IMG/VR virus record: IMGVR_UViG_3300042939_000736
Span: 1 to 64,000 of that record
Reading direction: 5' to 3' (one strand)
DNA: 64,000 nt
Source of the DNA: a virus
Below, one piece after another: positions 42,567-63,015 of the stretch. A model generated the notes under the pieces. It was given only the letters and a program-made list of their open reading frames with translations. It did no database searches and was not told the origin of the DNA. The position numbers and the translations under genes are program-made. Each line of letters opens with the position of its first letter. Position 1 is the stretch's first letter.

Positions 42567-45500
42567 ATGATGAGTTTTAAACTTTCTGGTGGCGTTGAAG
42601 TTCTTGGGTTTATATCTCCAACAGAACCCTCTGATGAATATCCAGTTATAGATCCTTTATATGGGATTGATGGATTTAGAAACGTAAACAATTTGTCAGA
42701 TCTTGACACTATTCCTTTTTTAAGAAGAAGGGCAGGTATGGTCGCGGGTGTAAGTGGGGGAACTCAATACTATAAATTAAATCTTCCTCCTTGGAATTTT
42801 ACTATATCAGATTGGAGCCCATTTTCAATTACAGGTGGAACCGGTACTTCTGGCACATCGGGATCAAGCGGGTCAAGTGGAACATCTGGAGCTCAAGGAA
42901 CAAGTGGATCTGCCGGTACTAATGGAACTTCGGGTTCTGACGGATCTAGTGGCACCAACGGAACATCAGGAACTGATGGAACTAGTGGTTCTAACGGTAC
43001 CGATGGAACTAGTGGTACAAACGGAACAAACGGAACAAACGGTACAAGTGGAATATCGGGCGTAAACGGTACAAGTGGTACATCAGGAACTAATGGAACT
43101 AGTGGAACAAATGGTACATCAGGAACTAATGGAACTAGTGGAACAAATGGTACATCAGGAACTAATGGAACAGATGGGACTTCAGGTAGTAACGGAACAA
43201 ATGGTACATCAGGAACTAATGGAACAAATGGAACATCAGGAACTAACGGTACTGATGGAACTTCAGGTACTAATGGAACTTCAGGTACTAATGGAACTTC
43301 AGGTACTAATGGAACAGATGGTACTAGCGGAACAAACGGAACAGATGGTACAAGCGGTACGAATGGAACTGACGGCACTAGCGGTACTAATGGTACTAAT
43401 GGAACTTCAGGTACTAATGGAACTTCAGGTACTAATGGAACAGATGGTACTAGCGGAACAAACGGAACAGATGGTACAAGCGGTACGAATGGAACTTCAG
43501 GAACAAATGGTACAGATGGAACTTCAGGAACAAATGGTACAGATGGAACTTCAGGAACAAACGGAACTTCAGGAACAAATGGTACATCAGGAACAAATGG
43601 TACTAGCGGCACAAACGGAAGTTCAGGAACAAACGGAACAAACGGAAGTTCAGGAACAAACGGAACTTCAGGAACAAATGGAACAAACGGAAGCTCAGGA
43701 ACAAATGGTACTAATGGGTCAAGTGGAACAAACGGTACAAGCGGCACAGGTGGAACTTCGGGGACAAATGGGACTAGCGGGACTAACGGTACAGACGGGA
43801 CTAGCGGTTTATCGGGTGTAAACGGAACATCAGGTACTAATGGTACAGACGGTTCGAGCGGAACTAATGGGACTGATGGGTCAAGTGGAACTAATGGGAC
43901 TAGTGGAACATCAGGTACTAACGGAACTTCAGGAACGAATGGAACTTCAGGAAGTAATGGTACTGATGGTACAAGTGGTACTGATGGTACTGATGGATCT
44001 TCAGGAACAAATGGTACAAGCGGTACGAATGGAACAGATGGGACAAGCGGAACTAATGGTACGGACGGGTCAAGTGGAACTAATGGTACGGACGGTACTA
44101 ATGGAACAGATGGAACCTCAGGAACTAATGGTACTGATGGAACAAGTGGTACTGATGGTACTGATGGATCTTCAGGAACAGATGGGACAAGCGGAACTAA
44201 TGGTACTGACGGCACTTCAGGTACAAACGGAACAGATGGGACAAGTGGAACTAATGGTACGGACGGTACATCAGGTACAAACGGTACAGATGGAACTTCA
44301 GGTACTGACGGAACTAGCGGTACGAATGGAACGGATGGTACAAGCGGAACAGATGGTACAAGCGGTACGAATGGTACTGACGGAACTAGCGGAACAAATG
44401 GTACGGACGGAACTAGCGGAACAAATGGTACGGACGGCACTTCAGGGACTAACGGTACTGATGGCACAAATGGAACAGATGGATCTTCAGGTACAAATGG
44501 TACTGACGGAACAAGTGGTACTAATGGAACTGATGGATCTTCAGGAACAGATGGTACTAGTGGTTTATCTGGTGTAAATGGTACATCAGGAACTAACGGG
44601 ACATCAGGTACAAACGGTACTGATGGAACTTCAGGAACTAATGGTACTAGCGGCACAAATGGGACTGATGGTACTTCAGGAACTAATGGTACGGACGGTA
44701 CAAGTGGAACAGATGGAACTTCAGGAACGGATGGGTCAAGTGGTACAGATGGAACAAGTGGGTCTTCAGGAACAAATGGAACGGACGGAACTTCAGGAAC
44801 AAATGGAACTAACGGAACAGATGGTACTAGCGGAACAAATGGAACAGATGGTACTAGCGGAACAAATGGTACAGATGGTACTAGCGGAACTAACGGAAGT
44901 GACGGAACTTCAGGAACTAATGGTACTAACGGCTCAAGTGGAACTGATGGTACAAATGGTTCTTCAGGTACAAATGGAACGGATGGTTCTAGCGGTACAG
45001 ATGGTTCAAGTGGTACTAATGGTACTGACGGTAGTAGCGGAACTGATGGAACTTCAGGTACCGATGGTACGAATGGATCAAGCGGAACAGATGGAACTAG
45101 TGGAACAGACGGAACAAATGGTTCAAGTGGTACTAATGGGACTTCAGGTACAGATGGGACTAATGGGACAGACGGAACCTCAGGAACTGACGGAACAAAT
45201 GGTTCAAGCGGAACAGACGGGACTAGCGGTACTAATGGTACTAATGGTAGTTCAGGTACAGATGGTACTAGCGGAACAAACGGTACTGATGGGACTTCAG
45301 GTACAGATGGTACTAATGGAACTTCAGGTACAGATGGTACTAGCGGTACTGACGGAACTAACGGGACAGATGGAACTAGCGGAACTAACGGAACAGATGG
45401 TACTAGCGGGACAGATGGAACTTCAGGTACGAATGGTACAGATGGAACTAGTGGAACAGATGGTACAAACGGAACTAGTGGAACAGATGGAACAAACGGA

Positions 45501-48500
45501 ACTAGTGGAACAGATGGAACAAGTGGAACTAATGGTACTAATGGAACCTCAGGAACTAATGGTACGGATGGTACAAGCGGGACTAATGGGACTAACGGAA
45601 CGGATGGAACTAGCGGTACCAATGGTACAAATGGTAGTTCAGGCACTAACGGAACTTCAGGAACAAATGGAACAGATGGTACTAGTGGAACTAATGGTAC
45701 GGATGGAACTAGCGGTACTAACGGAACAAATGGTTCGAGTGGAACAAATGGTACAGATGGTACTAGCGGGACAGATGGTACTAGCGGAACTGATGGAACA
45801 AATGGTTCTTCAGGTACTAATGGTACTAACGGATCAAGCGGAACTGATGGAACAAGTGGAACTAATGGTACAGATGGAACTTCAGGTACAAATGGTACAG
45901 ACGGGTCTTCAGGAACAAACGGAACTAATGGTACTAGTGGAACTAATGGTACAGACGGAACTAGCGGAACAGATGGTACTTCAGGGACTAATGGTACTGA
46001 TGGGTCAAGTGGAACTAACGGAACTTCGGGTACAAATGGAACAGATGGAACTTCAGGAACAAATGGAACAAGTGGGACAGATGGTACTAATGGTACTGAC
46101 GGTAGTAGCGGAACTAATGGAACTGACGGAACATCAGGCACCAACGGTACAGATGGTTCAAGTGGTACTGATGGGACAAGTGGTTTGTCTGGTGTAAATG
46201 GAACATCAGGGACAAATGGAACTAACGGTACTAATGGGACTTCGGGAACTAACGGTACAGATGGTTCAAGTGGTACTAATGGTACGGACGGTACTAGCGG
46301 AACTAATGGAACAGATGGAACGAGCGGAACTGATGGTACAAATGGAACGAGCGGAACTAATGGTACAAATGGAACGGATGGTACTAGCGGCACAAATGGA
46401 ACAGACGGAACGAGCGGAACTGATGGTACAAATGGATCAAGTGGTACAAACGGAACAGATGGTTCAAGTGGTACTAATGGTACGGACGGAACTTCAGGTA
46501 CAAATGGGACTGATGGTACAAGTGGTACTAACGGAACAAATGGTACGGATGGTACTAGTGGAACTGATGGTACTTCAGGAACTAACGGAACAAACGGTTC
46601 AAGTGGTACAGATGGTACTAGCGGTTCAAATGGAACTAACGGTACTAATGGTACAAGTGGAACAAATGGTACCAACGGAACTAGCGGAACAAATGGTACC
46701 AATGGTTCTTCAGGTACTAATGGAACTAATGGTACTTCAGGAACTAACGGTACAAATGGGACTTCAGGCACTAACGGAACAAACGGATCATCAGGCACAA
46801 ACGGTACTAATGGAACTTCAGGAACTGACGGTACGTCGGGAACTAATGGTTCAAGTGGTACCAACGGTACTAGCGGAACTAATGGGACATCAGGTACGAA
46901 TGGTACGAATGGTACTAGCGGAACTAATGGAACGTCAGGTACCAACGGAACATCAGGAACTAATGGTACGAATGGCACTAGCGGTACGAACGGAACTAAT
47001 GGAACTTCAGGAACCAATGGTACGAATGGAACTAACGGTACAAATGGGACTTCGGGAACTAATGGTACAAATGGAACTTCAGGGACTAACGGTACCAATG
47101 GGACTTCAGGAACAAATGGAACCAACGGTACAAGCGGAACTGATGGAACTTCGGGTACAAATGGTACAAACGGTACTTCAGGTACTAATGGAACATCGGG
47201 AACAAACGGAACTTCCGGTACGAATGGAACAAATGGCTCAAGCGGCACTAATGGAACATCAGGTACAAACGGAACGGACGGAACTTCAGGAACAAATGGA
47301 ACTAGCGGAACCAATGGAACTTCGGGCACTAATGGAACAAATGGATCAAGTGGTACGAATGGAACTTCAGGAACGAATGGTACCAATGGAACATCAGGTA
47401 CTAATGGGACTTCTGGTACAAACGGAACAAATGGTTCAAGTGGGACTAACGGTACATCAGGTACGAATGGAACTTCTGGCACTAATGGTACGAATGGGTC
47501 TAGCGGAACAAATGGAACTTCAGGTACAAACGGAACGAATGGTACAAACGGAACATCAGGTACGAACGGAACTAGTGGAACAAACGGGACTAATGGTACT
47601 AGCGGAACAAATGGTACAAACGGAACATCAGGAACCAATGGAACCAATGGTACAAACGGAACTTCAGGTACAAATGGAACCAATGGAACATCGGGCACTA
47701 ACGGTACTTCAGGTACTAACGGTACGAATGGAACATCAGGTACTAACGGAACTAATGGTACTTCAGGTACGAATGGCACAAGCGGAACCAATGGTACAAA
47801 CGGAACAAATGGAACTTCGGGCACAAATGGATCAAGTGGTACGAATGGAACTTCAGGAACTAATGGTACTAACGGTACAAGTGGAACCAATGGTACAAAC
47901 GGAACATCAGGTACGAATGGAACTTCAGGTACCAACGGAACAAATGGAACATCAGGAACGAATGGTACTTCGGGAACTAACGGGACAAATGGTACGTCGG
48001 GCACAAATGGTACCGATGGGACTTCAGGTACAAATGGAACCAATGGTACTAGCGGGACTAATGGAACAAACGGGACTAGCGGGACCAATGGAACAAACGG
48101 GACTTCAGGTACGAACGGAACCAATGGATCAAGTGGGACAAACGGAACATCAGGTACTAACGGTACCAACGGAACATCAGGAACTAACGGGACAAATGGA
48201 ACGTCAGGTACTAATGGGACATCTGGCACTAATGGTACTTCAGGAACCAACGGGACTAGTGGTACGAACGGAACAAATGGTTCAAGTGGAACTAATGGAA
48301 CATCAGGCACCAACGGGACTTCAGGTACTAATGGTACTAACGGAACTTCGGGAACTAATGGGACTAGCGGTACTAACGGAACTAATGGAACTTCAGGTAC
48401 AAATGGAACTTCGGGTACTAATGGGACAAGTGGTACAAATGGAACTAATGGTACATCAGGAACCAATGGCACTTCGGGAACTAACGGTACATCAGGTACG

Positions 48501-51500
48501 AATGGAACAAATGGTAGTAGCGGAACAAACGGAACATCAGGAACTAACGGTACTAATGGGTCTTCGGGAACAAATGGTACGAGTGGAACTAATGGTACTA
48601 GCGGAACTAATGGTACAAATGGTACGAGTGGAACTAATGGAACATCAGGGACTAATGGAACCAACGGAACCAATGGATCAAGTGGGACAAACGGAACATC
48701 AGGTACTAACGGTACCAACGGAACATCAGGAACTAACGGGACAAATGGAACGTCAGGTACTAATGGAACTAGCGGCACAAATGGAACTAGCGGCACAAAT
48801 GGAACAAACGGTTCAAGTGGTACTAACGGGACAAATGGAACCTCAGGTACTAACGGCACAAACGGCACATCAGGAACCAACGGTACTAGCGGCACAAATG
48901 GAACAAACGGAACTAGTGGAACAAACGGAACTTCAGGTACTAATGGTACAAATGGAACTAGCGGTACTAACGGAACTTCAGGTACTAATGGAACATCAGG
49001 TACTAACGGAACAAACGGAACTTCAGGTACGAATGGAACTTCGGGTACTAATGGAACAAATGGTTCAAGTGGAACTAACGGTACTAGCGGAACGAATGGA
49101 ACTAGTGGTACTAACGGTACAAATGGTACTAGTGGAACAAATGGGACATCAGGAACTAATGGTACGAACGGCACATCAGGTACCAATGGTACAAATGGAA
49201 CATCAGGTACAAACGGAACTAGCGGTACGAATGGAACCAATGGAACTAATGGTACAAATGGGACTTCAGGAACTAACGGTACTAATGGTACGTCGGGTAC
49301 AAATGGAACAAATGGAACTTCAGGTACCAACGGAACCAATGGATCAAGTGGTACAAACGGAACGTCAGGCACAAATGGTACGAACGGTACAAATGGAACT
49401 TCAGGAACCAATGGAACTTCGGGCACAAACGGAACTAGTGGAACAAACGGAACTTCAGGTACAAATGGAACGAATGGAACCTCAGGAACAAATGGTACTA
49501 ACGGCACATCAGGAACAAACGGTACATCAGGTACAAATGGAACTAATGGCACATCAGGGACAAATGGTACTAACGGAACTAGTGGAACAAACGGCACAAA
49601 TGGTTCAAGTGGAACCAACGGTACTAATGGAACCTCAGGAACTAATGGTACGTCAGGAACTAATGGTACAAACGGATCAAGTGGAACAAACGGTACATCA
49701 GGAACTAACGGAACAAATGGTACATCGGGTACTAACGGCACAAACGGAACGTCAGGAACAAATGGTACTTCAGGCACTAACGGAACCAATGGAACAAACG
49801 GAACTTCAGGTACGAATGGAACAAACGGTACTAGCGGAACTAATGGTACTTCAGGTACTAATGGAACTTCGGGAACGAACGGAACAAATGGTACTAGCGG
49901 AACAAATGGTACTTCAGGTACAAATGGAACTAGTGGGACTAACGGTACTAATGGGACTTCAGGAACAAACGGAACTAATGGTACATCAGGTACGAATGGA
50001 ACTAGCGGAACAAACGGAACTTCAGGAACAAATGGAACCAATGGAACATCAGGGACTAATGGTACAAACGGCACTTCAGGTACTAATGGAACAAATGGAA
50101 CCTCAGGGACTAATGGTACAAACGGCACTTCAGGTACTAATGGAACATCAGGAACAAATGGTACAAATGGAACTTCGGGGACAAACGGTACTTCAGGAAC
50201 TAATGGTACAAACGGTACTTCGGGCACGAATGGAACCAGCGGAACAAATGGTACATCAGGAACTAACGGGACTAGCGGAACTAATGGAACATCAGGTACA
50301 AATGGTACAAACGGATCTTCAGGGACTAACGGAACGAATGGAACCTCAGGAACTAACGGAACGAATGGAACCTCAGGAACTAACGGAACAAATGGTACAT
50401 CGGGTACGAATGGAACTAATGGTACATCGGGTACGAATGGAACAAATGGAACATCAGGTACTAACGGTACTTCAGGAACAAACGGTACTAACGGAACTTC
50501 AGGTACAAACGGTACAAATGGGACTTCAGGTACAAACGGAACTAGCGGAACAAATGGAACAAATGGAACCTCAGGGACTAATGGAACTAGTGGTGTTAGT
50601 GGTTTAAATGGTACAAACGGAACTTCAGGAACCAATGGGACTAATGGAACATCGGGTACTAGAGGTACTTCAGGTACTAATGGGACAAATGGTTCTTCAG
50701 GAACTAGTGGAGGTGGAGGTGGAGGCGCAATTTCTATTTATGACGAAGGAATTTTAGTTCAATCAAGTGCCACAAGTTTAAATTTTGTCGGTGTGTGTAC
50801 TACAGCATCATCAGGCACAAGCGGATCAGTCACAGTAAATATTGGTTGTGGATGTGAATACGAATATATTAATATAGCGTCAAACTCAGGTTATTTAGAA
50901 TTAGACAAACCAACCGATTTTACTAAAATATGGATTGGTAATAAATTGGGTGGTTGGAATTGTTGTCCTTGGGATTATTTTGAACCAGGGGTTAATGGTA
51001 ATTTGTCAAGAACAAGATATCCTTATTATGGTGTGCCATTACCAACATCTTTATATCCAGGAGATGTTGTTAGAATTTGTGGTTCAATAACACAAATAAA
51101 TCAGGGTGGTAATCCATGTTTAACTTATGATGATATAAGAGTTGGAGTGTCTTATATCAGTTGTTCTGATTCTAGTGCAATTATATTTGCAAATACATTG
51201 ATACCGGCTACTGATCTTATTTTAAATGGTAATGGTACGGCTTGTTTTAATTTAGAAGTTGGTATAGACGTTACCCTACCGGCTTGTGATACTATGTTAA
51301 CAGTTAATATTTCAACAACACAAGAAAGTGAATGTGATAGAACTTTACACTTCAGTTATACGCTTAACGCCGATAGATATTGTCCAACTTTTGATCCAAC
51401 CCCAAATCTTGTAGCACAAAATTGTTGTGATCCTTTGATCAAAGAAGTAATTCCAAAAGGTACATTACAAGTCGGTGATTTTTATGCCGATAGTGAAGGA

Positions 51501-52508
51501 AACTGTTGGGAAATTTTACAAAAAACGGGTGATGCTCCTGACTATACAAGAATAGTTTCCGCGACTTATAATTCATGTTCGGCTTGTATAACAGCAAATC
51601 CATGTCCTCAAAATATAGTGTTTGAATCTTGTTGTGAACAGGCCCCTGAAACATTTACAGGTTCATTACCTGGTATTAATGTAGGTGATGTGTTTGTTGA
51701 TACTTATGGATTCTGTTGGAGCGCAACATCATTGACTGTATCACCAGTTTCTGGTATCGTATATGTTGACACTAATTATGGAAACGTAGATTGTTTGAAT
51801 TGTTTAACAGGTAACCCATGTCCTAATGTTTTTGAATTACAACCTTGTTGTAAGTTTTTGGGAGGTCCTTTCTTTGTAACTGCAGCATCTTTAGGATACA
51901 CACCAGTTGTAGGTGAAGTATTTGTTGATACATGGGGTAATTGTTGGACAGTTTCGAAAGATCAAGCGACAGGTCAAAATGTGACCGCTCCGTGGATTGT
52001 TCATGATACAAGTTACACAAGTTGTGAGTTGTGTTTAGCTTCCAACCCATGTCAAGATGACACAATAATTTATGCCACAGTAAGAAATTGTTGTTCAGGT
52101 GACGTTGAAGTTGTTGCGGTACCTATGGTTTATTTAACTGGTTTAGAAACCACGATATCTTTCAGTCAACCAGGAACACCTAATGTTTATGAGTGTTGGG
52201 AAGTTTTAGGTTGGGAATTAGTTGACACGCCAACGATAACTTTCTATGCGTTAGGTGGGTTCTACATCGATTGTGTAAGATGTCTAATCGCGAATCCTTG
52301 TCCTGACTTTTACGAAGCAATAGATTGTTGTGGAACTTTACCTAACGAAGTTGTTTTAAGCAATGGACCGACAGGAAGTGTTTTTGTTGATACTTTAGGA
52401 CGTTGTTGGACTGTAGGTTTAGCAGTTGCCGGTCCTGCGACAATAACATCGAGTGGTAACTATTTAGATTGTACAGAATGTATAAACGTTAATCCATGTT
52501 CAGCATAA
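42567..52508 (+). CDS. Giant collagen-like fibre protein (about 877 Gly-Thr-Xaa triplets)
   Basis: 3313 residues, by far the largest gene. Residues 1-89 are a globular attachment head, with GFRNVNNLSDLDTIPFLRRR. Residues 90-2720 are unbroken Gly-X-Y triplets in which X is almost always Thr or Ser and Y is Ser, Asn or Asp, without Pro or charged Lys/Arg except one GTR near the end. A Gly-rich hinge (GTSGGGGGGAIS) leads to a C-terminal head of about 590 residues with five repeated Cys-rich modules ending (C)xxxNPCP and containing GD(V/F)(F/Y)xDxxGxCW. Collagen-like stalks on phage fibres are known, but this length and the lack of Pro are unusual. The terminator follows directly. Product: probable long tail fibre or whisker. 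Confidence 0.88.
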   Translation: MMSFKLSGGVEVLGFISPTEPSDEYPVIDPLYGIDGFRNVNNLSDLDTIPFLRRRAGMVAGVSGGTQYYKLNLPPWNFTISDWSPFSITGGTGTSGTSGSSGSSGTSGAQGTSGSAGTNGTSGSDGSSGTNGTSGTDGTSGSNGTDGTSGTNGTNGTNGTSGISGVNGTSGTSGTNGTSGTNGTSGTNGTSGTNGTSGTNGTDGTSGSNGTNGTSGTNGTNGTSGTNGTDGTSGTNGTSGTNGTSGTNGTDGTSGTNGTDGTSGTNGTDGTSGTNGTNGTSGTNGTSGTNGTDGTSGTNGTDGTSGTNGTSGTNGTDGTSGTNGTDGTSGTNGTSGTNGTSGTNGTSGTNGSSGTNGTNGSSGTNGTSGTNGTNGSSGTNGTNGSSGTNGTSGTGGTSGTNGTSGTNGTDGTSGLSGVNGTSGTNGTDGSSGTNGTDGSSGTNGTSGTSGTNGTSGTNGTSGSNGTDGTSGTDGTDGSSGTNGTSGTNGTDGTSGTNGTDGSSGTNGTDGTNGTDGTSGTNGTDGTSGTDGTDGSSGTDGTSGTNGTDGTSGTNGTDGTSGTNGTDGTSGTNGTDGTSGTDGTSGTNGTDGTSGTDGTSGTNGTDGTSGTNGTDGTSGTNGTDGTSGTNGTDGTNGTDGSSGTNGTDGTSGTNGTDGSSGTDGTSGLSGVNGTSGTNGTSGTNGTDGTSGTNGTSGTNGTDGTSGTNGTDGTSGTDGTSGTDGSSGTDGTSGSSGTNGTDGTSGTNGTNGTDGTSGTNGTDGTSGTNGTDGTSGTNGSDGTSGTNGTNGSSGTDGTNGSSGTNGTDGSSGTDGSSGTNGTDGSSGTDGTSGTDGTNGSSGTDGTSGTDGTNGSSGTNGTSGTDGTNGTDGTSGTDGTNGSSGTDGTSGTNGTNGSSGTDGTSGTNGTDGTSGTDGTNGTSGTDGTSGTDGTNGTDGTSGTNGTDGTSGTDGTSGTNGTDGTSGTDGTNGTSGTDGTNGTSGTDGTSGTNGTNGTSGTNGTDGTSGTNGTNGTDGTSGTNGTNGSSGTNGTSGTNGTDGTSGTNGTDGTSGTNGTNGSSGTNGTDGTSGTDGTSGTDGTNGSSGTNGTNGSSGTDGTSGTNGTDGTSGTNGTDGSSGTNGTNGTSGTNGTDGTSGTDGTSGTNGTDGSSGTNGTSGTNGTDGTSGTNGTSGTDGTNGTDGSSGTNGTDGTSGTNGTDGSSGTDGTSGLSGVNGTSGTNGTNGTNGTSGTNGTDGSSGTNGTDGTSGTNGTDGTSGTDGTNGTSGTNGTNGTDGTSGTNGTDGTSGTDGTNGSSGTNGTDGSSGTNGTDGTSGTNGTDGTSGTNGTNGTDGTSGTDGTSGTNGTNGSSGTDGTSGSNGTNGTNGTSGTNGTNGTSGTNGTNGSSGTNGTNGTSGTNGTNGTSGTNGTNGSSGTNGTNGTSGTDGTSGTNGSSGTNGTSGTNGTSGTNGTNGTSGTNGTSGTNGTSGTNGTNGTSGTNGTNGTSGTNGTNGTNGTNGTSGTNGTNGTSGTNGTNGTSGTNGTNGTSGTDGTSGTNGTNGTSGTNGTSGTNGTSGTNGTNGSSGTNGTSGTNGTDGTSGTNGTSGTNGTSGTNGTNGSSGTNGTSGTNGTNGTSGTNGTSGTNGTNGSSGTNGTSGTNGTSGTNGTNGSSGTNGTSGTNGTNGTNGTSGTNGTSGTNGTNGTSGTNGTNGTSGTNGTNGTNGTSGTNGTNGTSGTNGTSGTNGTNGTSGTNGTNGTSGTNGTSGTNGTNGTNGTSGTNGSSGTNGTSGTNGTNGTSGTNGTNGTSGTNGTSGTNGTNGTSGTNGTSGTNGTNGTSGTNGTDGTSGTNGTNGTSGTNGTNGTSGTNGTNGTSGTNGTNGSSGTNGTSGTNGTNGTSGTNGTNGTSGTNGTSGTNGTSGTNGTSGTNGTNGSSGTNGTSGTNGTSGTNGTNGTSGTNGTSGTNGTNGTSGTNGTSGTNGTSGTNGTNGTSGTNGTSGTNGTSGTNGTNGSSGTNGTSGTNGTNGSSGTNGTSGTNGTSGTNGTNGTSGTNGTSGTNGTNGTNGSSGTNGTSGTNGTNGTSGTNGTNGTSGTNGTSGTNGTSGTNGTNGSSGTNGTNGTSGTNGTNGTSGTNGTSGTNGTNGTSGTNGTSGTNGTNGTSGTNGTSGTNGTSGTNGTNGTSGTNGTSGTNGTNGSSGTNGTSGTNGTSGTNGTNGTSGTNGTSGTNGTNGTSGTNGTNGTSGTNGTSGTNGTNGTNGTNGTSGTNGTNGTSGTNGTNGTSGTNGTNGSSGTNGTSGTNGTNGTNGTSGTNGTSGTNGTSGTNGTSGTNGTNGTSGTNGTNGTSGTNGTSGTNGTNGTSGTNGTNGTSGTNGTNGSSGTNGTNGTSGTNGTSGTNGTNGSSGTNGTSGTNGTNGTSGTNGTNGTSGTNGTSGTNGTNGTNGTSGTNGTNGTSGTNGTSGTNGTSGTNGTNGTSGTNGTSGTNGTSGTNGTNGTSGTNGTNGTSGTNGTSGTNGTSGTNGTNGTSGTNGTNGTSGTNGTNGTSGTNGTNGTSGTNGTSGTNGTNGTSGTNGTSGTNGTNGTSGTNGTSGTNGTSGTNGTSGTNGTSGTNGTNGSSGTNGTNGTSGTNGTNGTSGTNGTNGTSGTNGTNGTSGTNGTNGTSGTNGTSGTNGTNGTSGTNGTNGTSGTNGTSGTNGTNGTSGTNGTSGVSGLNGTNGTSGTNGTNGTSGTRGTSGTNGTNGSSGTSGGGGGGAISIYDEGILVQSSATSLNFVGVCTTASSGTSGSVTVNIGCGCEYEYINIASNSGYLELDKPTDFTKIWIGNKLGGWNCCPWDYFEPGVNGNLSRTRYPYYGVPLPTSLYPGDVVRICGSITQINQGGNPCLTYDDIRVGVSYISCSDSSAIIFANTLIPATDLILNGNGTACFNLEVGIDVTLPACDTMLTVNISTTQESECDRTLHFSYTLNADRYCPTFDPTPNLVAQNCCDPLIKEVIPKGTLQVGDFYADSEGNCWEILQKTGDAPDYTRIVSATYNSCSACITANPCPQNIVFESCCEQAPETFTGSLPGINVGDVFVDTYGFCWSATSLTVSPVSGIVYVDTNYGNVDCLNCLTGNPCPNVFELQPCCKFLGGPFFVTAASLGYTPVVGEVFVDTWGNCWTVSKDQATGQNVTAPWIVHDTSYTSCELCLASNPCQDDTIIYATVRNCCSGDVEVVAVPMVYLTGLETTISFSQPGTPNVYECWEVLGWELVDTPTITFYALGGFYIDCVRCLIANPCPDFYEAIDCCGTLPNEVVLSNGPTGSVFVDTLGRCWTVGLAVAGPATITSSGNYLDCTECINVNPCSA
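42834..50730 (+). repeat. Gly-Thr-Xaa coding repeat region
   Basis: About 7.9 kb of 9-base-periodic coding sequence. Amino acid sequence is nearly invariant but third codon positions are scrambled, so most stretches are not exact DNA repeats. Exact longer copies do occur: 105 bases at 43266-43370 and 43392-43496 (offset 126), and 104 bases at 48114-48217 and 48663-48766 (offset 549). Hydrophobic landmark units G(L/I)SGVNG occur at 43050, 43806, 44562 and 46182, with GVSGLNG at 50592. Confidence 0.95.
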
Positions 52509-52510
52509 AA

Positions 52511-52540: not shown

Positions 52541-55459
52541 TTATTTTCTATTATCAAAATAAAATATTACTTCACAATACCACTCTAAAAAATGATCATT
52601 AAATAAATCCCATTTAATATCAACACCATCAACAGAATAAACTTCATAATTATCAAAGTTAGAAAGAACATTATCCCTAAACCATTTAAATTTACATTTA
52701 TTAAAATGTTCGTCATCTCTTAAATGAAATTCGGTTACAATCTTAGGAATTGTTTTTAAAAATTCTACGTTGCTTGGTTGAAAAACATCGTATTCCCCAC
52801 CTTCACAATCACATTTTAAAAAATCAATTTTGTTAATATTTTCATTTTCTAAAAATTCTTTAAAACTAAATGTAGGAACACTTTCAGTTATTCCATCCCA
52901 ACTGATTTCAATTTTCTTTTTATCAGTAATTGCTCCCTGTATAATTTTTACATTATCTTCACCAACATTTTTATGAAGAACTTCAATCTGATATGATAAT
53001 GGTTCAACTACATAACATTGTTTTGGATTTTTAGGTAATATTTTATATGTAAATGGACCTAAAGATGCGCCCAAATCTACAACAATATCTCCTTCTTCAA
53101 CTTCAAAGAATCTTTCATATGTATTATTTTCAAATATTTCTTTAGTTGCTTGATTAACATACCAATCACTTTTTTTACCCCAATCGAATGAAGTTTCTTC
53201 ATTTTTTTCAATCATTAATTCTTTATTTATTATTTTGTTTATTTCCAAAATGACCATTTCTGAAGTAATTTCTTTCGTACACTCAAACATCCTATCTGTG
53301 TTTTTATGTAATGGACACCAATTCCAATCACCAGCATCCAATCTTTCCGAATTGAAACATCCGTGACAAACATTTTCATTTATGACTCTGTATGTATTTA
53401 AAGTTGTTTCCGCCCATCTTTCACTAAAACCCGATATTAAAACAATAGGTAATTCACAAGCCCAAGCCAACCAACTAAGACCTGAACCGAGACCAATAAA
53501 AAATTCACATGTTGATAAATCATCAACTACTTCTTGTAGATTTCCCCCTTTAAATAATTTTACACCTTCAGGATAGTTGTTATTCATGTATCCGTTACCT
53601 TCCTTTGAATATATGACACATTCATAACCAAGGGATAAAAGGTAGTTCACAACTTCTTGCCATCCATTTGTGTTGTTCCAATATTTTGCCTGAGCAGTTG
53701 AATGAAAACCAATACCAACTTTTTTTTCTTTTTTTATTTTAGGTAATTTTAATTTTGGTCTTATTTCATTGTATTGTAAACCTAATATATCTGAAGCCGT
53801 TTTTTGTAATGGTTGTTTTTTTACATCGACTTTGTGGATATTTGAATTGATAGTCCCATCTTCATTGTAAAACCAACCTAATCTATATTGTGCGTATATG
53901 TTTTGAACAATAACACCCGGTTCGACAAATTCAATTTCTGTATATTGTTCTTTGAACAAATAGTTCATGAAGGTAGAAACGATTAGTTTACATTTGTGTT
54001 TGATTCTAAATTCTTCACAATATGGTAACCATGCTAAGGTATCCCCTAAAGATTTTGAACCGAATGATATGTAGACTCTTTTATTTTCCAAGTTAAGTAA
54101 ATTACTATAAATTAGTTGTCCATTTTCTTTTACTTCGGTTTTCCAAGGTACATAATATTCCGTATTGAGTCTTACCCAATGGTTGATTGGTAATTCGTTT
54201 GAATAAATTAAATTATTTTCATCATATATTTTTATATCAAGTTTGTTTTCAGTACTACCCAATATTTCCAAAAAAGGATTAACAACAAAATGTTGATTAA
54301 ACGTGTAATCATTTTTGTGTTTTTGGTTTTGTACTTTGTCATTTTCTAAAACTCTTTTATAAAATGAATATAATTGTTCCCCAAAATCTTGTTGGGTTTC
54401 TATTTCATATGAAGATTCTTTTTCAATTAAACTTAATAATTGTTCTGATATTTTTTTATAATCATCATTTTCAATACTTGTGATGTATCTGTCGAACATC
54501 CCCATGTACTGAGGTAGGTTTCTGGTCAATATTTTCATTCCGTAGTTGATTGCTTCTCTTACAACCAAAGGATTACATTCCCATGTTGAATTGAACATCA
54601 AAACATCACATGACTCCATGAATTTATCAACGTCATTTCTTTCACCCCATACCGTAACATTTGAAGGTAAGTTTTCCATTATTGGTTTCCAATAAGATTC
54701 AAAATTGGGGGCTTGGTTTCCTATGAAGTGAAAATGTAAATCGGGATTAGTATGTTCCAATAATTTTGCAACTTCGATACCTTCTTTTTGATTTTTTCCT
54801 TCGGTCCAAAGACCAACATTAAGAATGTGTGTTTTCATTGGGTCCAACCCAAGATTTTCTCTTTCTGTTATTTTTTTCAAAAGAGGTATTTTATGATGTT
54901 CATAATAGATTTGTAATTCTTCTAAAATAGGTTTGACTTTGTTTTCATATGGGTACAAATGAAGTTCTTTAAGTGATCTTTCAGATTCAAAAGTGGTAAA
55001 ATGAAAAGGACTAACGAATGAATATGCGTCAGGATGAAATTTTTTATTATTTGGGTTAAACCAAACATTGTGACACGTTTCAACAATATTCCAAGATCGT
55101 TGATTATCATAAAGTTCGTTCAAAATGTCCAATGTAATTTTATTAAAACTTTCAAAGGCTTCGGGTATTTCTTCTGAATGAATGATATCTATTTTTAAAT
55201 CCTTAATTATTTTTAAAAGTTCTTTTTTTCTACTTGATTCTGTTGTTGATCCCAAAGTAAAAAAATGACCTACATCTAATAAATCAATGATTTTGTTTCT
55301 TTGTACGATATATGTGTCACTAAATTGAGAATATTCTACTAAAAAAATATCAAGTTTATCTTTGTATTTCAGAAGTGATTCAATTCTTTTTAGGACAAAC
55401 TGTGGCATACCACCAGTTGATAAATGTGGCGTTAGATATAGTATTTTAATTTTTTGCAT
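52541..55459 (-). CDS. Three-domain fusion: GT4 glycosyltransferase, Aah/TibC-like O-heptosyltransferase, FkbM methyltransferase
   Basis: 972 residues. Domain 1 (about 1-380) is a GT4-like GT-B enzyme: KILYLTPHLSTGGMPQFVLK and ILNVGLWTEGKNQKEGIEVA with STWECNPLVVREAINYGM. Domain 2 (about 410-760) matches autotransporter O-heptosyltransferases of the Aah/TibC type: VYISFGSKSLGDTLAWLPYC, HSTAQAKYWNNTNGWQEVV, GYECVIYSKEGNGYM, FFIGLGSGLSWLAWACELPI, and a four-Cys iron-finger pattern CHGCFN-x-NWCP-x-FECTKEIT near 695-730. Domain 3 (about 780-972) is FkbM: IVVDLGASLGPFTYKI and IDFLKCDCEGGEYDVF. Aah/TibC enzymes put heptose on Ser/Thr of repetitive surface proteins. It is convergent with, and 32 bases from, the giant Gly-Thr-Xaa gene. 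Confidence 0.87.
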   Translation of the reverse strand: MQKIKILYLTPHLSTGGMPQFVLKRIESLLKYKDKLDIFLVEYSQFSDTYIVQRNKIIDLLDVGHFFTLGSTTESSRKKELLKIIKDLKIDIIHSEEIPEAFESFNKITLDILNELYDNQRSWNIVETCHNVWFNPNNKKFHPDAYSFVSPFHFTTFESERSLKELHLYPYENKVKPILEELQIYYEHHKIPLLKKITERENLGLDPMKTHILNVGLWTEGKNQKEGIEVAKLLEHTNPDLHFHFIGNQAPNFESYWKPIMENLPSNVTVWGERNDVDKFMESCDVLMFNSTWECNPLVVREAINYGMKILTRNLPQYMGMFDRYITSIENDDYKKISEQLLSLIEKESSYEIETQQDFGEQLYSFYKRVLENDKVQNQKHKNDYTFNQHFVVNPFLEILGSTENKLDIKIYDENNLIYSNELPINHWVRLNTEYYVPWKTEVKENGQLIYSNLLNLENKRVYISFGSKSLGDTLAWLPYCEEFRIKHKCKLIVSTFMNYLFKEQYTEIEFVEPGVIVQNIYAQYRLGWFYNEDGTINSNIHKVDVKKQPLQKTASDILGLQYNEIRPKLKLPKIKKEKKVGIGFHSTAQAKYWNNTNGWQEVVNYLLSLGYECVIYSKEGNGYMNNNYPEGVKLFKGGNLQEVVDDLSTCEFFIGLGSGLSWLAWACELPIVLISGFSERWAETTLNTYRVINENVCHGCFNSERLDAGDWNWCPLHKNTDRMFECTKEITSEMVILEINKIINKELMIEKNEETSFDWGKKSDWYVNQATKEIFENNTYERFFEVEEGDIVVDLGASLGPFTYKILPKNPKQCYVVEPLSYQIEVLHKNVGEDNVKIIQGAITDKKKIEISWDGITESVPTFSFKEFLENENINKIDFLKCDCEGGEYDVFQPSNVEFLKTIPKIVTEFHLRDDEHFNKCKFKWFRDNVLSNFDNYEVYSVDGVDIKWDLFNDHFLEWYCEVIFYFDNRK

Positions 55460-55494
55460 AAATAAAAAATAAGTTTAGACTTAATAAATTAAAG

Positions 55495-55502: not shown

Positions 55503-55515
55503 TAATAAACAATAA

Positions 55516-56517: not shown

Positions 56518-56539
56518 GGAATTAAATTTTGAAACATAA

Positions 56540-56547
56540 TATTTATT
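56540..56547 (+). promoter_or_regulatory. TATTTATT box before the second LamG gene
   Basis: TATTTATTTAAAAAAA lies 11 bases before the ATG at 56559. It also decides against a start at the upstream in-frame TTG (56529), which would place the box inside the gene. Confidence 0.5.
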
Positions 56548-56558
56548 TAAAAAAAGTT

Positions 56559-57551: not shown

Positions 57552-57555
57552 AATC

Positions 57556-57583: not shown

Positions 57584-57604
57584 CTTTAAGTTATATTTTA
57601 ATTA

Positions 57605-58537
57605 ATGAAAGAAATTTGTATTGATGTTACAGGTTGTCGTGCTTTGGGCGACACTTTATGTGCAACACCTGTGGTTAAAAAAATAAGTAATACTTATAAT
57701 AAAAAAGTTTCGGTAGTTTCTCACCACCCAAAATTATTTACTAACTTATCATACGTTGAAAACAGTTTTGAATACAACCCAAAATTGTTTGATGATTTGA
57801 AAAAAGATTACGATATCTTTCCAACTTTTGATGTGTCATACAAAGACAATGGAATTTGTAACAAGCACAACTCTATGGATATAAGACAACTACACGCAAT
57901 AAACTTAGGATTTATGTTGACTAAAGAAGAATCTTCTTTGGATTATGTACCAGATGCTTGTATCTTACCCATTTTACCAAAAAAATACGTTTTAATCCAC
58001 CCCGTTCAAAATTGGAATTCAAGGACATGGCCGGCCAAAAATTGGCAAATATTAACAAAACTTTTAAATGAAAAAGGAATTTACGTTGTATCTGTTGGAA
58101 AAGATTCTTCTGAATTAGGTGGGTCTAATGTAGATAAACCCGTTTTCAATTTTGAAATAGAACTTGGATTAAATCTTATGAACAAAACAACTTTGGATGA
58201 AACATGGTATCTGTTAAATGGTTGTTCTTGTTTTGTAACTATGGACTCTGGACTATTACATTTAGCCGGTACAACAGATTGTGAAATACTACAACTTGGT
58301 AGCTCAATAGATCCTGAATTCAGAGCACCATATAGACATGGTTCACAAGAATATAAGTATCATTATGTTAGAGGGGGTTGTGGTTTACATTGTGCTTCTG
58401 ATATGAAGTATGGCGTTAGAGAATGGGGATCGATACAAGGAATACCATCTTTAGTTAATTGTTTAGAAAGAAAAAAAACTTTTGAGTGTCATCCTTCTGT
58501 TTTACAGATTTATCAAAAAATCTTAGAAATAATATAA
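57605..58537 (+). CDS. GT9-family heptosyltransferase-like protein
   Basis: GT9 features: CIDVTGCRALGDTLCATPVV (N-terminal GD(x)L loop), YVLIHPVQNWNSRTWPAKNW followed by QILTKLLNEKGIYVVSVGKD (HP...sr.wp..W...L pattern) and SCFVTMDSGLLHLAGTTDCE (DSG.(m/l)H.A donor site). A Cys-containing C-terminal segment (GGCGLHCASDMKYG; FECHPSVLQIYQKI) again looks like the metal-finger end of Aah/TibC enzymes. GT9 proteins use ADP-heptose; the substrate here is inferred. It lies after the LamG genes on the plus strand. Confidence 0.82.
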   Translation: MKEICIDVTGCRALGDTLCATPVVKKISNTYNKKVSVVSHHPKLFTNLSYVENSFEYNPKLFDDLKKDYDIFPTFDVSYKDNGICNKHNSMDIRQLHAINLGFMLTKEESSLDYVPDACILPILPKKYVLIHPVQNWNSRTWPAKNWQILTKLLNEKGIYVVSVGKDSSELGGSNVDKPVFNFEIELGLNLMNKTTLDETWYLLNGCSCFVTMDSGLLHLAGTTDCEILQLGSSIDPEFRAPYRHGSQEYKYHYVRGGCGLHCASDMKYGVREWGSIQGIPSLVNCLERKKTFECHPSVLQIYQKILEII

Positions 58538-58542
58538 GTTTG

Positions 58543-58550
58543 TATTTATT
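58543..58550 (+). promoter_or_regulatory. TATTTATT box before the gene at 58566
   Basis: TATTTATTAAAAAAAACC lies 15 bases before the GTG start at 58566, directly after the preceding stop. Confidence 0.4.
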
Positions 58551-58565
58551 AAAAAAAACCAAACA

Positions 58566-59036
58566 GTGTCACAACAAATAACAATTACAGGAATAACAGG
58601 CACCCCACCATATGATATATATGTTTGTGATATAACAAACACAATCTGTGTTTTTGTAACCGGATTAACTAGTTGTCCACCAACGTATAGTTTTTACGTC
58701 CCATCACCCTTAAATAATTCATCGTCTATTATTTTAAAGATAATTGATTCTGATGCTTGTGAAACCTTTCAACTTTTCAATTGTTTTACACCAACACCTA
58801 CTCCAACACCTACCCCCACACCAAGTCCTTTACCCACTTCTTGTAACTGTATTTCAGTAAGGTCAAACACAATGGATGGTGGAACATTTGATTTTATAGA
58901 TTGTTTTGGAAATCTTAACACATTTGTCCCAGTACCTTTTGGTAGTACGTTGTATTTTTGTGGTTCGAACCCGTCCAATTTTAACAACGTAAATCTTACT
59001 GTTGGTTTACCATGTGTGCTTAATGTTTGTCCATAA
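58566..59036 (+). CDS. Small Cys/Thr-Pro-rich virion-type protein
   Basis: The start is GTG (MSQQITITGITGTPPYDIYV). Residues 1-75 are a beta domain of the kind that opens many small tail-associated proteins here. A FTPTPTPTPTPTPSPLPTSC linker leads to a second Cys-containing beta domain. The plan (beta domain, Thr-Pro stalk, beta domain) matches the larger protein encoded at 41763-42551. A fibre or decoration protein is likely. Confidence 0.7.
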   Translation: MSQQITITGITGTPPYDIYVCDITNTICVFVTGLTSCPPTYSFYVPSPLNNSSSIILKIIDSDACETFQLFNCFTPTPTPTPTPTPSPLPTSCNCISVRSNTMDGGTFDFIDCFGNLNTFVPVPFGSTLYFCGSNPSNFNNVNLTVGLPCVLNVCP

Positions 59037-59039
59037 AAT

Positions 59040-59047
59040 TATTTATT
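59040..59047 (+). promoter_or_regulatory. TATTTATT box before the GT60-like gene
   Basis: It starts at position 4 after the preceding stop and lies 37 bases before the ATG at 59085, in an otherwise AT-rich 48-base gap. Confidence 0.35.
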
Positions 59048-59084
59048 TTGAATTTAAAAACCGTATTTTTATTCAAAAAACTAA

Positions 59085-60332
59085 ATGAAAATTTTTATAC
59101 AAATTGCATCCTACAGAGATCCACAGTTATTACCCACAATTAAAAACTGTATTGAAAATTCAAAACACCCCGAAAATTTAATTTTTTCAATTGCAAGACA
59201 ATATCACATAGAAGATGGGTTTGATGATTTATCTGAATTTGAAAACGACAATAGATTCAAAGTGATCAACATACCCTACACAGAATCCAAAGGGGTTTGT
59301 TGGGCAAGAAACATGACACAACAACAATACAATAATGAAGAATATACCCTTCAAATTGACTCACACATGAGATTTGAAAAAAATTGGGATGAAACATTAA
59401 TAGGTATGATTAAAGACTTACAGAAAAAAGGATTTAAAAAACCTTTACTAACAAGTTATGTTTCTTCATTCGATCCTGAAAACGATCCAACAGGAAGGGT
59501 AAATGAACCTTGGAGAATGGCTTTCGATAGATTCACACCCGAAGGTTGTGTTTTTTTCTTACCTGAAGTAATTCCTAATTGGAAAGAACTTGATGGTCCT
59601 GTACCATCAAGATTTTATTCCGCACATTTTTGTTTTACCTTGGGTCAATTTTCTAAAGAAGTTCAGCACGATCCTGAATATTATTTTCATGGAGAAGAAA
59701 TATCAATCGCCGTAAGAGCATTTACTCATGGATATGATTTGTTTCACCCACACCGTGTGGTCATTTGGCATGAATACACAAGAAAGGGTAGAACAAAACA
59801 ATGGGATGATGATAAAGAATGGTTTTTGAAAAATGACTTTTCACACTCTAAAAACAGAAAACTATTAGGTGTTGACGGTGAAGAACTTGGGAATTTGTCA
59901 GACTCTTATGGATTTGGAAAACAAAGAACATTAAGAGATTATGAAAAATATTCAGGAATATTGTTTTCAAAAAGGGCGGTTCAAAAATATACTTTAGACA
60001 AAAATTACCCACCAAACCCAAACAATTTTTCTTCTGAAGAAGAATGGGAAAAAAGTTTCTCAATGATTTTCAAACACTGTATTGATGTATCATTTAATGA
60101 CGTACCTGAAAATGATTATGAGTTTTGGGTTGTTGCCTTTCATAATGAAAAAGATGAAACATTATTTAGACATGATGCTGATGTAAAAGAAATAATTCAA
60201 ATGAAAAAAGATCCTGATGGTTATTGTAAAGTATGGAGAGAATTTGATACAACTGAAAAACCCAAGTATTGGGTTGTTTGGCCCTATTCTAAATCCAAGG
60301 GATGGTGTAACAGATTAACAGGTAATTTATAA
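59085..60332 (+). CDS. GT60-like (Skp1-type) GlcNAc transferase
   Basis: The sequence follows the GlcNAc-transferase family (PF11397; Skp1 Hyp-GlcNAc transferase, GT60): KIFIQIASYRDPQLLPTIKN, IFSIARQY, KGVCWARNMTQQQYNNEEYT followed by LQIDSHMRFEKNWDETLI (metal motif DSH), PLLTSYVSSFDPENDP, and the later YFHGEEISIAVRAFTHGYD and HPHRVVIWHEYTR. Family members act on protein hydroxyls rather than lipid or DNA; the donor is usually UDP-GlcNAc. The C-terminal 120 residues (FWVVAFHNEKDETLFRHDAD) are an extra domain. Located in the glycosylation cluster with the next two genes overlapping. Confidence 0.82.
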   Translation: MKIFIQIASYRDPQLLPTIKNCIENSKHPENLIFSIARQYHIEDGFDDLSEFENDNRFKVINIPYTESKGVCWARNMTQQQYNNEEYTLQIDSHMRFEKNWDETLIGMIKDLQKKGFKKPLLTSYVSSFDPENDPTGRVNEPWRMAFDRFTPEGCVFFLPEVIPNWKELDGPVPSRFYSAHFCFTLGQFSKEVQHDPEYYFHGEEISIAVRAFTHGYDLFHPHRVVIWHEYTRKGRTKQWDDDKEWFLKNDFSHSKNRKLLGVDGEELGNLSDSYGFGKQRTLRDYEKYSGILFSKRAVQKYTLDKNYPPNPNNFSSEEEWEKSFSMIFKHCIDVSFNDVPENDYEFWVVAFHNEKDETLFRHDADVKEIIQMKKDPDGYCKVWREFDTTEKPKYWVVWPYSKSKGWCNRLTGNL

Positions 60333-61336
60333 TGATGGAACTTAACATTAGGCACGAATTTAGGGATCTCAGACTTGGTAACAATGAATTTTACGTTACA
60401 AGTTTTTTTAAAAAATTTTATGAAAGTTTAAAAACAAAATATCCTGAAATAAATTTTAGTATAAAAAATGAAACTTCTTTTGGGAAGTATGGTCAGGGGG
60501 GAATTTATAGCTGCATGAATTTTTCTATAGTGAACCCTATCAACAAAAAGTATGTCTTGATTTCTTTTTTTGATAATTGGAAATATCATTTCATGTCTCA
60601 TTTAGGTTGGGAGGCTAATAAAATGGTTCAATTTTTTTATCCCGGCGGATTCAATTTTTATGATTATTTTACCTTTAAGGACACTTCAAAAAATAATTCT
60701 GACTTACAGTTTCCAAAAAACATGGACGATATTTTTACCCCTTTTTATTATGGACCTTACTTTGATTGTTGTTATGAAGAAATTAATAACATATACAAAC
60801 AAAATTTAAACAAGGAAAAAATCAATAAATTGTATTTCAGGGGTTGGATGTGGGATTTCAGAAAAGAAATGGTAAGTAAAATAAATCAAGAAGACATATT
60901 AATAATTGATAAAAATAAAAATAATCAGACTTTAAATTACTTAGAATTTTTAGAAGATAGTTCCAAATATTCTGCGGTATTGAGTTTACCAGGTGGTAAT
61001 GAAATGTGTAATAGAGATATAGAATGTTTTGGAATTGGAGTACCTGTAATAAGACCAGCAGTAAACGTAAAATACAAAGATCCTCTGATACCTAACTATC
61101 ATTATATTAGTTGTTATGATTTTTGTGATTATTCAATTGACGGAAATCCAAAATATATTTCCAACGAAGATTTTCAAAAAAATTTAATAAAAAAATGGAA
61201 CTCAGTAAAAAATAATAAAGAATATTTAGATTTCGTTTCAAAAAATGCAAGATCTTGGTTTGAAAAAAATTGTAGGGTGGATAAAAATATAACGTGCGTT
61301 TTGGAACAATTAAACTTAGAAAAACTTTTTGAATAA
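60332..61336 (+). CDS. GT90/exostosin-like glycosyltransferase
   Basis: KLYFRGWMWDFRKEMVSKIN (an FRG...R motif) and KYSAVLSLPGGNEMCNRDIE followed by CFGIGVPVIRPAV fit the C-terminal donor-binding half of GT90 (CAP10/POGLUT-like) or exostosin-like enzymes, which have a YxxxLxx(D/P)GxxxxxR arrangement and an E/IP step. GT90 includes protein O-glucosyl/xylosyltransferases. The N-terminal half is not recognised. One-base overlaps on both sides show co-translation with the GT60-like and HtrL-like genes. Confidence 0.6.
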   Translation: MMELNIRHEFRDLRLGNNEFYVTSFFKKFYESLKTKYPEINFSIKNETSFGKYGQGGIYSCMNFSIVNPINKKYVLISFFDNWKYHFMSHLGWEANKMVQFFYPGGFNFYDYFTFKDTSKNNSDLQFPKNMDDIFTPFYYGPYFDCCYEEINNIYKQNLNKEKINKLYFRGWMWDFRKEMVSKINQEDILIIDKNKNNQTLNYLEFLEDSSKYSAVLSLPGGNEMCNRDIECFGIGVPVIRPAVNVKYKDPLIPNYHYISCYDFCDYSIDGNPKYISNEDFQKNLIKKWNSVKNNKEYLDFVSKNARSWFEKNCRVDKNITCVLEQLNLEKLFE

Positions 61337-63015
61337 TGATAACTTTAGTAACTGGATTGTGGGATATAGGTAGAGGTGACCTTAAAGAAGGGTGGTCAAG
61401 AAATTTTGATTTCTATTTAGAAAGATTTAGAGATATTTTAAAAATAGATTGTAATCTTATTATTTTTGGTGATGAAGAATTACATAAGTTTGTATTATCA
61501 GAAAATAGGGACAAAACAAAAACAAAATTTATCACAAGAAACTTAGATTGGTTTAGAAACAACGAATATTTTGAAAAAATTCAAAACATAAGAAAAGACC
61601 CGAAATGGTTTAATCAAGTTGGGTGGTTAAAAGATTCGACCCAATCAACTTTAGAAATGTACAATCCTTTGGTCATGTCCAAAATGTTTTTATTACATGA
61701 CGCGATGTTACTTGATCCATTCAATTCTGAAAAGTTATATTGGATTGATGCGGGAATTACAAATACTGTAAATTTAGGTTATTTTACAAATGACGATGTT
61801 TTATCAAAAATTGACAAATTATTAAACAACTTTACTTTCTTAGCATTTCCTTATGAAACAGATACAGAAATACACGGATTTTCAATAAAAGGAATGACGG
61901 ATTACATAGGAAAAAAACCAGATATGGTATGTAGGGGAGGATTTTTTGGTGGCCCAAAGCATTTAATTTCTGAAATGAATGTTAATTACTATCAAACATT
62001 AATTAGTACTCTTTCTGATGGATACATGGGAACAGAAGAAAGTATCTTTACTATTTTAACCTATAACTTACCTACCATAATAGATTTTTGTAAAATTGAT
62101 TCTAATGGTTTAGTTTATAAATTTTTTGAAGACATAAAAAATAATCAAGTTGTTATAGAAAACACTTCGGTTACGAAGTTTGAAAAAAAACCAATATCAT
62201 ATTCTGGAGGCGTCGGATTATATGTTATAACATTTAATTCACCAAAACAATTTGAAGTTTTGATTGAATCTATGTTAGAATACGATCCTTCGTTTTTAAG
62301 TAAAACTAAAAAGTTTTTATTGGATAATTCTACAGATTTAACTACAAGTAAAGAATACAAAAATTTGTGTAGTTTATATGATTTTGAACATATCAAAAAA
62401 AATAATATAGGCATAACTGGTGGCAGACAATTTATCGCCGAACATTTTAACCAACAGGATGACTTGGATACTTATTATTTTTTTGAAGATGATATGGCTT
62501 TTTACAAAAAAGATTCCGGTGTTTGTAAAAATGGTTTTTCAAGATACATTAAACACATTTTTGATATTACTCAAGAAATAATAAAAAAAGAAAATTTTGA
62601 TTTTTTAAAACTTAATTTTACCGAATTTTTTGGAAGTCATGATAAGCAGTGGGCTTGGTACAATGTACCTCAAACATTTAGGGAAAAACATTGGCCAAAA
62701 AACAAAAGTCTACCAAAACAAGGTTTGGACCCAAATTCACCTAATTTAGAGTTCAAACATATAAAATCACATAGAGGTTTAGCATATGCATCAGGAGAAA
62801 TTTATTTATCAAATTGGCCAATACTTATGACTAAAAATGGTAATTATAATTGTTATCTGAAAACAAAATTTAAAAATCCTTATGAACAAACATTGATGAG
62901 CCATTGTTATCAAGAAACAATCAAAGGAAATATTTTTGGATCTGTTTTACTATTGACACCAACAGAACATAATAGATTTGACTTTTATGATTCTAAATTA
63001 AGAAAAGAATGTTGA
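61336..63015 (+). CDS. HtrL/YibB-like domain fused to a GT-A glycosyltransferase domain
   Basis: Residues 1-260 resemble HtrL/YibB-family proteins: ITLVTGLWDIGRGDLKEGWS, LIIFGDEELHKFV, and NPLVMSKMFLLHDAMLLDPF followed by KLYWIDAGITNTVN and RGGFFGGPKHLI. These are GT-A-fold proteins with a WIDAG metal site. Residues 285-559 form a second GT-A domain: GLYVITFNSPKQFEVLIESM, FLLDNSTDLTTSKEYKN, IGITGGRQFIAEHFNQQDDL, YYFFEDDMAFYKKDSG (EDD). Phage and pathogen relatives sit in polysaccharide and protein-glycosylation loci. It ends the gene trio that starts at 59085. Confidence 0.75.
   Translation: MITLVTGLWDIGRGDLKEGWSRNFDFYLERFRDILKIDCNLIIFGDEELHKFVLSENRDKTKTKFITRNLDWFRNNEYFEKIQNIRKDPKWFNQVGWLKDSTQSTLEMYNPLVMSKMFLLHDAMLLDPFNSEKLYWIDAGITNTVNLGYFTNDDVLSKIDKLLNNFTFLAFPYETDTEIHGFSIKGMTDYIGKKPDMVCRGGFFGGPKHLISEMNVNYYQTLISTLSDGYMGTEESIFTILTYNLPTIIDFCKIDSNGLVYKFFEDIKNNQVVIENTSVTKFEKKPISYSGGVGLYVITFNSPKQFEVLIESMLEYDPSFLSKTKKFLLDNSTDLTTSKEYKNLCSLYDFEHIKKNNIGITGGRQFIAEHFNQQDDLDTYYFFEDDMAFYKKDSGVCKNGFSRYIKHIFDITQEIIKKENFDFLKLNFTEFFGSHDKQWAWYNVPQTFREKHWPKNKSLPKQGLDPNSPNLEFKHIKSHRGLAYASGEIYLSNWPILMTKNGNYNCYLKTKFKNPYEQTLMSHCYQETIKGNIFGSVLLLTPTEHNRFDFYDSKLRKEC

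Follow-up and report, generated by a model that had tools for sequence, protein, structure and literature searches.

A TibC-like glycosyltransferase fusion beside a giant fibre with a proline-free Gly-Thr-X stalk: a putative system for self-glycosylation of a phage stalk

Background

Does a phage that encodes a predicted protein O-glycosyltransferase next to a giant Thr-rich fibre use the one to decorate the other? The question is raised by positions 42567-63015 of IMG/VR record IMGVR_UViG_3300042939_000736, within the 64,000-nucleotide stretch analysed here (the window), where a 3313-residue fibre and a three-domain enzyme are encoded convergently, with 32 bases between the fibre stop and the enzyme open reading frame (ORF). 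That the TibC-like enzyme O-glycosylates the phage's own Gly-Thr-X fibre is, as far as sequence comparison can carry the argument, well supported.

The window covers the opening 64 kb of a 290,710-bp phage record, the remainder of which was examined stretch by stretch. T4-type head genes are present in the record, including a gp23-like capsid gene, and the annotated phages nearest in capsid protein are an uncultured huge phage, Microcystis phage Mel-JY01 and Flavobacterium phages. Two more contigs (L002, L003) carry the identical block.

The Gly-Thr-X stalk

The fibre consists of an N-terminal domain, a very long stalk and a tip (Table 1). The stalk is made up of 875 successive Gly-X-Y triplets without a single break, and the claim of the initial annotation that nearly every triplet holds a Thr or Ser is borne out by the count: X is Thr (799) or Ser (64) in 99% of the triplets, and Y is Asn, Ser or Asp (GTN 413, GTS 274, GTD 110 and GSS 57 triplets). 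Altogether, Ser and Thr account for 1200 of the 2625 stalk residues. The Gly periodicity is that of collagen; the Pro- or hydroxyproline-rich X and Y positions of collagen are absent, there being no Pro in the stalk at all. Codon usage drifts with the protein pattern preserved, and the repeat casts a long shadow ORF on the antisense strand (42893-50635).

The stalk contains 422 N-X-S/T sequons. The Bacteroidota-type O-glycosylation motif, D(S/T)(A/I/L/V/M/T), was considered and set aside: it occurs nowhere in the stalk and four times in the flanking domains.

The N-terminal domain, 77-79% identical to its relatives in further phage contigs, would from its position be the attachment domain. The structure model of the tip is weak (predicted local distance difference test, pLDDT, 72.5; predicted template modelling score, pTM, 0.43), and the viral collagen-head, C1q/TNF-type and lambda gpJ folds that it weakly matches are suggestive at most.

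The three-domain enzyme

The 972-residue enzyme is a fusion of a GT4 glycosyltransferase domain, a TibC/Aah-like O-heptosyltransferase domain and an FkbM-family methyltransferase domain, of which the initial annotation had named the middle one alone. The match of the middle domain to Aah/TibC enzymes with their four-Cys finger, already proposed in the initial annotation, is upheld: the domain scores 281 bits against TIGR04414, the NCBI Aah/TibC family (curated cut-off 200 bits), and aligns with TibC of the PDB at E~1e-63. Residue roles can be read across from TibC (PMC4358343; structures PDB 4RAP/4RB4), in which Asp110 is catalytic and T226, K230 and W305 contact phosphate or sugar. All of these are kept (D110 as D473, T226 as T588, K230 as K592, W305 as W663), as are the four Cys of the iron finger (C339/342/358/370 as C698/701/715/727). 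Among 69 distinct phage domains the Asp, the Lys and the four Cys never vary, the Trp hardly does, and the position equivalent to 226 is T or S. The hydrophobic thumb pair F265/V266, used in TibC for ring assembly together with F368, is replaced by residues of similar character (Y624/M625, and F725 for F368). The alignment begins at TibC residue 49, within the TibC beta-barrel (residues 1-97), and no PF21129 domain is detected.

To the likenesses with the bacterial autotransporter heptosyltransferases (BAHT; TibC/AAH) in catalytic Asp, contact residues and iron finger can be added the location of the gene beside a repetitive Ser/Thr-rich protein. The phage enzyme differs in its fusion to GT4 and FkbM domains and in the nature of that neighbour, a Gly-Thr-X stalk in place of the beta-helix autotransporter that is the partner of TibC and AAH.

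The same middle domain scores only 19.6 bits against the family of lipopolysaccharide (LPS) heptosyltransferase I. These family scores, favouring a protein O-heptosyltransferase, tell against the idea that the glycosyltransferases of the block remodel the host surface (LPS or capsule), for example in blocking rival phages, with the fibre a coincidental neighbour. Pelagimyophage glycosyltransferases beside tail-fibre genes have been interpreted in just this way (PMC7029224), several glycosyltransferase families are clustered here, and one of them, the GT60-like gene discussed below, is also found without a fibre; a second line of evidence against host-surface remodelling comes from cellular genomes and is given in its place.

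Related fusions occur elsewhere. In L055 a single protein (4192-8037) combines GT9, GT4 and TibC-like domains; this and the GT4-TibC-FkbM fusion of the window point to membership of one pathway, as judged from domain content. A fusion of GT8/GT25-like, GT4, TibC-like and FkbM domains is encoded at 8375-12931 of L023.

Association of enzyme and fibre in phages

When phage records were picked by a marker (capsid or terminase gene), a Gly-Thr/Ser-X fibre was present in 5/5 enzyme-positive and 4/38 enzyme-negative records (Fisher p=1.3e-4, duplicate removed); the fibre lies near a contig end in at least one of these four (G004). Records of at least 40 kb sampled by the fibre carry the enzyme in 22/42 cases, one of them a contig-end fragment and some of the records near-duplicates. 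When the enzyme domains are clustered at 90% identity, 37 of the 38 clusters are usable, and a scripted count places a Gly-X-X ORF within 2 kb of the enzyme in 12 and within 10 kb in 17; the window's own cluster is to be added to both counts, since its stored locus had short flanks. The same pairing is repeated in a 735-kb phage genome and in an isolate, Microcystis phage Mel-JY01 (PP395634.1), which carries a Gly-Ser/Thr-X fibre ORF (open from base 2 to 3049, possibly cut by the record start), then a structural gene, then a 1226-residue GT4/TibC-like protein (317 bits). (The deposited annotation of PP395634.1, L543 1-3052, puts minus-strand hypothetical genes over most of this fibre ORF.)

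Could fibre and enzyme simply share a hypervariable host-interaction module, without being substrate and enzyme? The region is certainly modular, in that fibre tip, LamG genes and glycosyltransferases are gained and lost independently of one another, and long fibres without the enzyme exist. Mere shared residence nonetheless seems improbable, considering that adjacency recurs in separate parts of the enzyme tree and in differing arrangements (convergent, 25-155 bp apart; enzyme then fibre, 35-118 bp; fibre then enzyme, 309-1331 bp), that independent enzyme-repeat pairs exist in cells, and that the enzyme is absent where related tips sit on other stalks.

This last comparison uses tip homologues at 36-41% identity (L522-L541), most of which are carried on Gln-rich stalks (X is Thr or Ser in 35-56%, and Y is most often Gln) and some of which stand alone as proteins of ~570 residues (L535-L541). 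No enzyme was found in the 14 records searched that have the tip on a Gln-rich stalk or by itself (0/14; two records exceed 100 kb, the others are 10-24 kb). Judged by these homologues, the fibre tip is a module exchanged between stalks of different phages.

Cellular enzyme-repeat pairs

Close cellular relatives of the TibC-like domain are encoded within about 1.5 kb of a small GTSG/GSSG-repeat protein in 9/10 loci, against 0/38 control loci of GT9 type (p=6e-9), the controls being nearly all from Gammaproteobacteria. Most of the small repeat proteins have a lipobox-like Cys and several an acidic tail. A class-wide survey of Gammaproteobacteria yielded 2/369 genomes above the cut-off, too rare for further loci. 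Hosts of the pair (L437-L447) include Methylobacter, Methylococcaceae, Polaromonas, Acidiferrobacterales and Arenicellales; Methylobacter sp. BlB1 (L437) is one of them.

The recurrence of the repeat beside the enzyme in bacteria, as small and mostly lipoprotein genes that the LPS-type GT9 loci lack, argues once more against remodelling of the host surface, which we regard as unlikely. It bears also on the proposal that these enzymes glycosylate phage DNA in the manner of the T4-type DNA glucosyltransferases. Glycosyltransferases of T4-like phages are best known for glycosylating DNA (as cited in PMC12619734); in cells and phages alike, the partner of the TibC-like branch is a protein repeat, and in the loci examined no DNA-related partner stands beside the enzyme, so that a DNA target has very little to recommend it.

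Putative ADP-heptose synthesis genes beside sister enzymes

Split hldE-like genes, with the heptose kinase and adenylyltransferase domains of ADP-heptose synthesis, directly follow the genes of sister enzymes in 10 divergent phage loci, several of them closely related to one another; in an eleventh, L051, they lie beside the TibC-like gene, not directly after it (the loci are L051, L067, L068, L072, L074 and L076-L081). The best family matches of these genes are the two rfaE domains, at scores below the equivalog cut-offs.

Points against glycosylation of the stalk

Several observations weigh against the enzyme-substrate reading or its heptose donor. In TibC, R286 touches adenine and is by report highly conserved, and P300 is the stereoselectivity residue (PMC4358343); in the window's enzyme these are V644 and G658. 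The absence of R286 and of an autotransporter partner is the reason for speaking of a TibC-like branch and not of a canonical BAHT. The change from R286 to V was entertained as the mark of a different donor and found not to be diagnostic, since R is also absent from the hldE-linked enzymes and from half of the cellular relatives. With position 286 variable across the 69 phage domains, in the hldE-linked domains and in cellular relatives alike, the substitution is no argument against heptose. No hldE homologue was found in the record of the window's phage, so that the donor would have to be supplied by the host.

The partners also occur apart. Among relatives that carry the enzyme, L042 and L044-L046 (one record of 175 kb) show no Gly-Thr/Ser-X match, and the fetched flanks of the hldE-linked group contain no Gly-X-X ORF. 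Fibre relatives lacking the transferases, which the initial annotation had singled out as evidence that would count against it, are in part found: long fibres exist in records without the enzyme (L243, L265 and L244, for example), and these records are mostly fragments. Among records sampled by one DNA pattern, stalk composition is near-equal whether or not the enzyme is present. The link between fibre and enzyme is strong yet not obligate.

Proposed function

The TibC-like domain would move a sugar onto Ser/Thr hydroxyls of the repeat, the likeliest being heptose donated by ADP-heptose. This would probably take place before the chain leaves the host cytoplasm, the compartment of the nucleotide sugars. 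Extension of this first sugar is probably the task of GT4, fused in the same protein, and of the stand-alone GT9 enzyme; FkbM, also part of the fusion, may methyl-cap the glycan. In the virion, the swappable tip would serve recognition and the decorated stalk would act as a spacer. We have fairly high confidence in this explanation as a whole, in which the stalk is sugar-coated by the phage's own TibC-like enzyme and the glycan extended and perhaps methyl-capped, on the strength of the genomic comparisons. What stands of the initial proposal that the phage decorates its own fibre is the part that draws on enzyme residues, co-occurrence, adjacency, tip comparison and cellular pairs; the GT60-like gene, which it had included, is not specific to the system, and the stiffness, protease resistance or immune masking that it ascribed to the stalk are conjecture.

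A wider generalization can be entertained, at a little better than an even chance: a class, absent from the papers retrieved, of TibC-like heptosyltransferases that coat Gly-(Thr/Ser)-X repeats of bacterial small surface lipoproteins and of phage stalks, the phage versions joined to GT4, GT9 or methyltransferase domains, and some phages adding their own ADP-heptose synthesis genes, giving methyl-capped stalks in which each chain bears hundreds of glycans.

Relation to known systems

Gly-X-Y stalks are known in phage structural proteins, among them the collagen-like fibres of E. coli prophages (PMC3368898) and the triple collagen repeats of pelagimyophages (PMC7029224). The present stalk differs from these in having no Pro, in having Asp and a single Arg as its only charged residues, and in the adjacency of a paired enzyme. 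How a Gly-X-Y stalk that exceeds 2,600 residues could keep its shape without proline would be explained if its Thr residues were glycosylated. An analogy, one of mechanism only, is with an animal protein, the cuticle collagen of Riftia, in which the modified Thr is said to be at the Y position; in the phage stalk Thr is at X. Glycosylated Thr is reported to stabilise the Riftia protein in place of hydroxyproline (Mann et al. 1996, cited in PMC6953826), and a similar substitution is, by this analogy, a possible reason for the lack of proline in the phage stalk.

Virion glycosylation by phage-encoded glycosyltransferases acting on the phage's own structural proteins is, according to work cited in PMC12363180, PMC12619734 and PMC11652166, established for mycobacteriophages (Che8 gp110, Corndog gp38, Myrna; Freeman et al. 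2023). The decorated proteins there are those of capsid and tail, as compared with a TibC-like enzyme and a Gly-Thr-X stalk here. Large aquatic 'moraphages' are described in PMC12619734 as having four core glycosyltransferases of unknown target. Within the library searched, no paper combined heptosyltransferase, collagen-like and O-glycosylation, although one may exist elsewhere in the literature.

If the reading is correct, phage virion glycosylation extends beyond mycobacteriophages to large aquatic phages, and Gly-Thr/Ser-X repeats become a new substrate class of protein O-heptosyltransferases, in place of the beta-helix adhesins. A TIGR04414 gene adjoining a Gly-Thr/Ser-X repeat can be thought of as the genomic signature of such a system, and the isolate Mel-JY01 makes the idea testable.

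Neighbouring genes

Four further glycosyltransferase-type genes lie at 57605-63015, and those that the initial annotation had named as GT9, GT60-like and HtrL are confirmed by profile. In most loci of the same type as the window's, GT9 is found together with the TibC-like gene, and by this comparison it belongs to the cassette. The GT60-like gene was considered as a part of the system and dropped, since it is found without fibre or enzyme in G001, G002, G012 and G016. The gene labelled GT90-like did not keep that label: it has no Pfam GT90 match, and its AlphaFold model (pLDDT 83) resembles assorted GT-B enzymes (template modelling score, TM, about 0.4-0.5), with no GT90 enzyme among the matches listed. 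The HtrL-type protein, identified by profile only and examined for linkage by gene-content comparison, was likewise not retained as part of the system.

Table 1. Fibre, enzyme and neighbouring genes in the window
Feature	Position	Strand	Evidence or remark
Fibre ORF, 3313 aa	42567-52508	+	
Fibre N-terminal domain, aa 1-89, candidate attachment domain	42567..42833	+	relatives in other phage contigs
Gly-X-Y stalk, aa 90-2714, 875 triplets, proposed O-linked sugar acceptor	42834..50708	+	
Fibre tip, 599 aa: beta-rich region, then ~6 Cys-rich repeats	50709..52508	+	
GT4 + TibC-like heptosyltransferase + FkbM methyltransferase fusion, 972 aa	52541..55459	-	convergent with fibre
GT4 domain, aa 197-362	54374..54871	-	PF00534 E=8e-16
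TibC/Aah-like O-heptosyltransferase domain, aa 400-743	53231..54262	-	TIGR04414 281.4 bits
FkbM-family methyltransferase domain, aa 793-912 (domain about 755-930)	52724..53083	-	TIGR01444 52.6 bits, cut-off 37.7
Two LamG/ConA-like proteins, candidate virion proteins	55516-56517, 56529-57551	+	PF13385; PHROG virion structural protein
GT9 (heptosyltransferase-family) gene, second cassette member	57605..58537	+	PF01075 1.6e-16
PF11397 glycosyltransferase ('GT60-like'), clade gene	59085..60332	+	E 5e-70, 237 bits, cut-off 21
Probable GT-B glycosyltransferase, not assigned to GT90	60332..61336	+	
HtrL/YibB-type protein with extra C-terminal domain	61336..63015	+	PF09612 3.4e-18 (profile only)

Just upstream of the fibre, 38885-41761 encodes a 958-residue protein whose C-terminal domain is a papain-like C1 peptidase and whose interior has a PTPTPT stretch. 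Proteins with the same Pro-Thr repeat flank the block (41763-42551 and 58566-59036); in L015 the PTPTPT-repeat proteins are much longer, at 589 and 666 residues.

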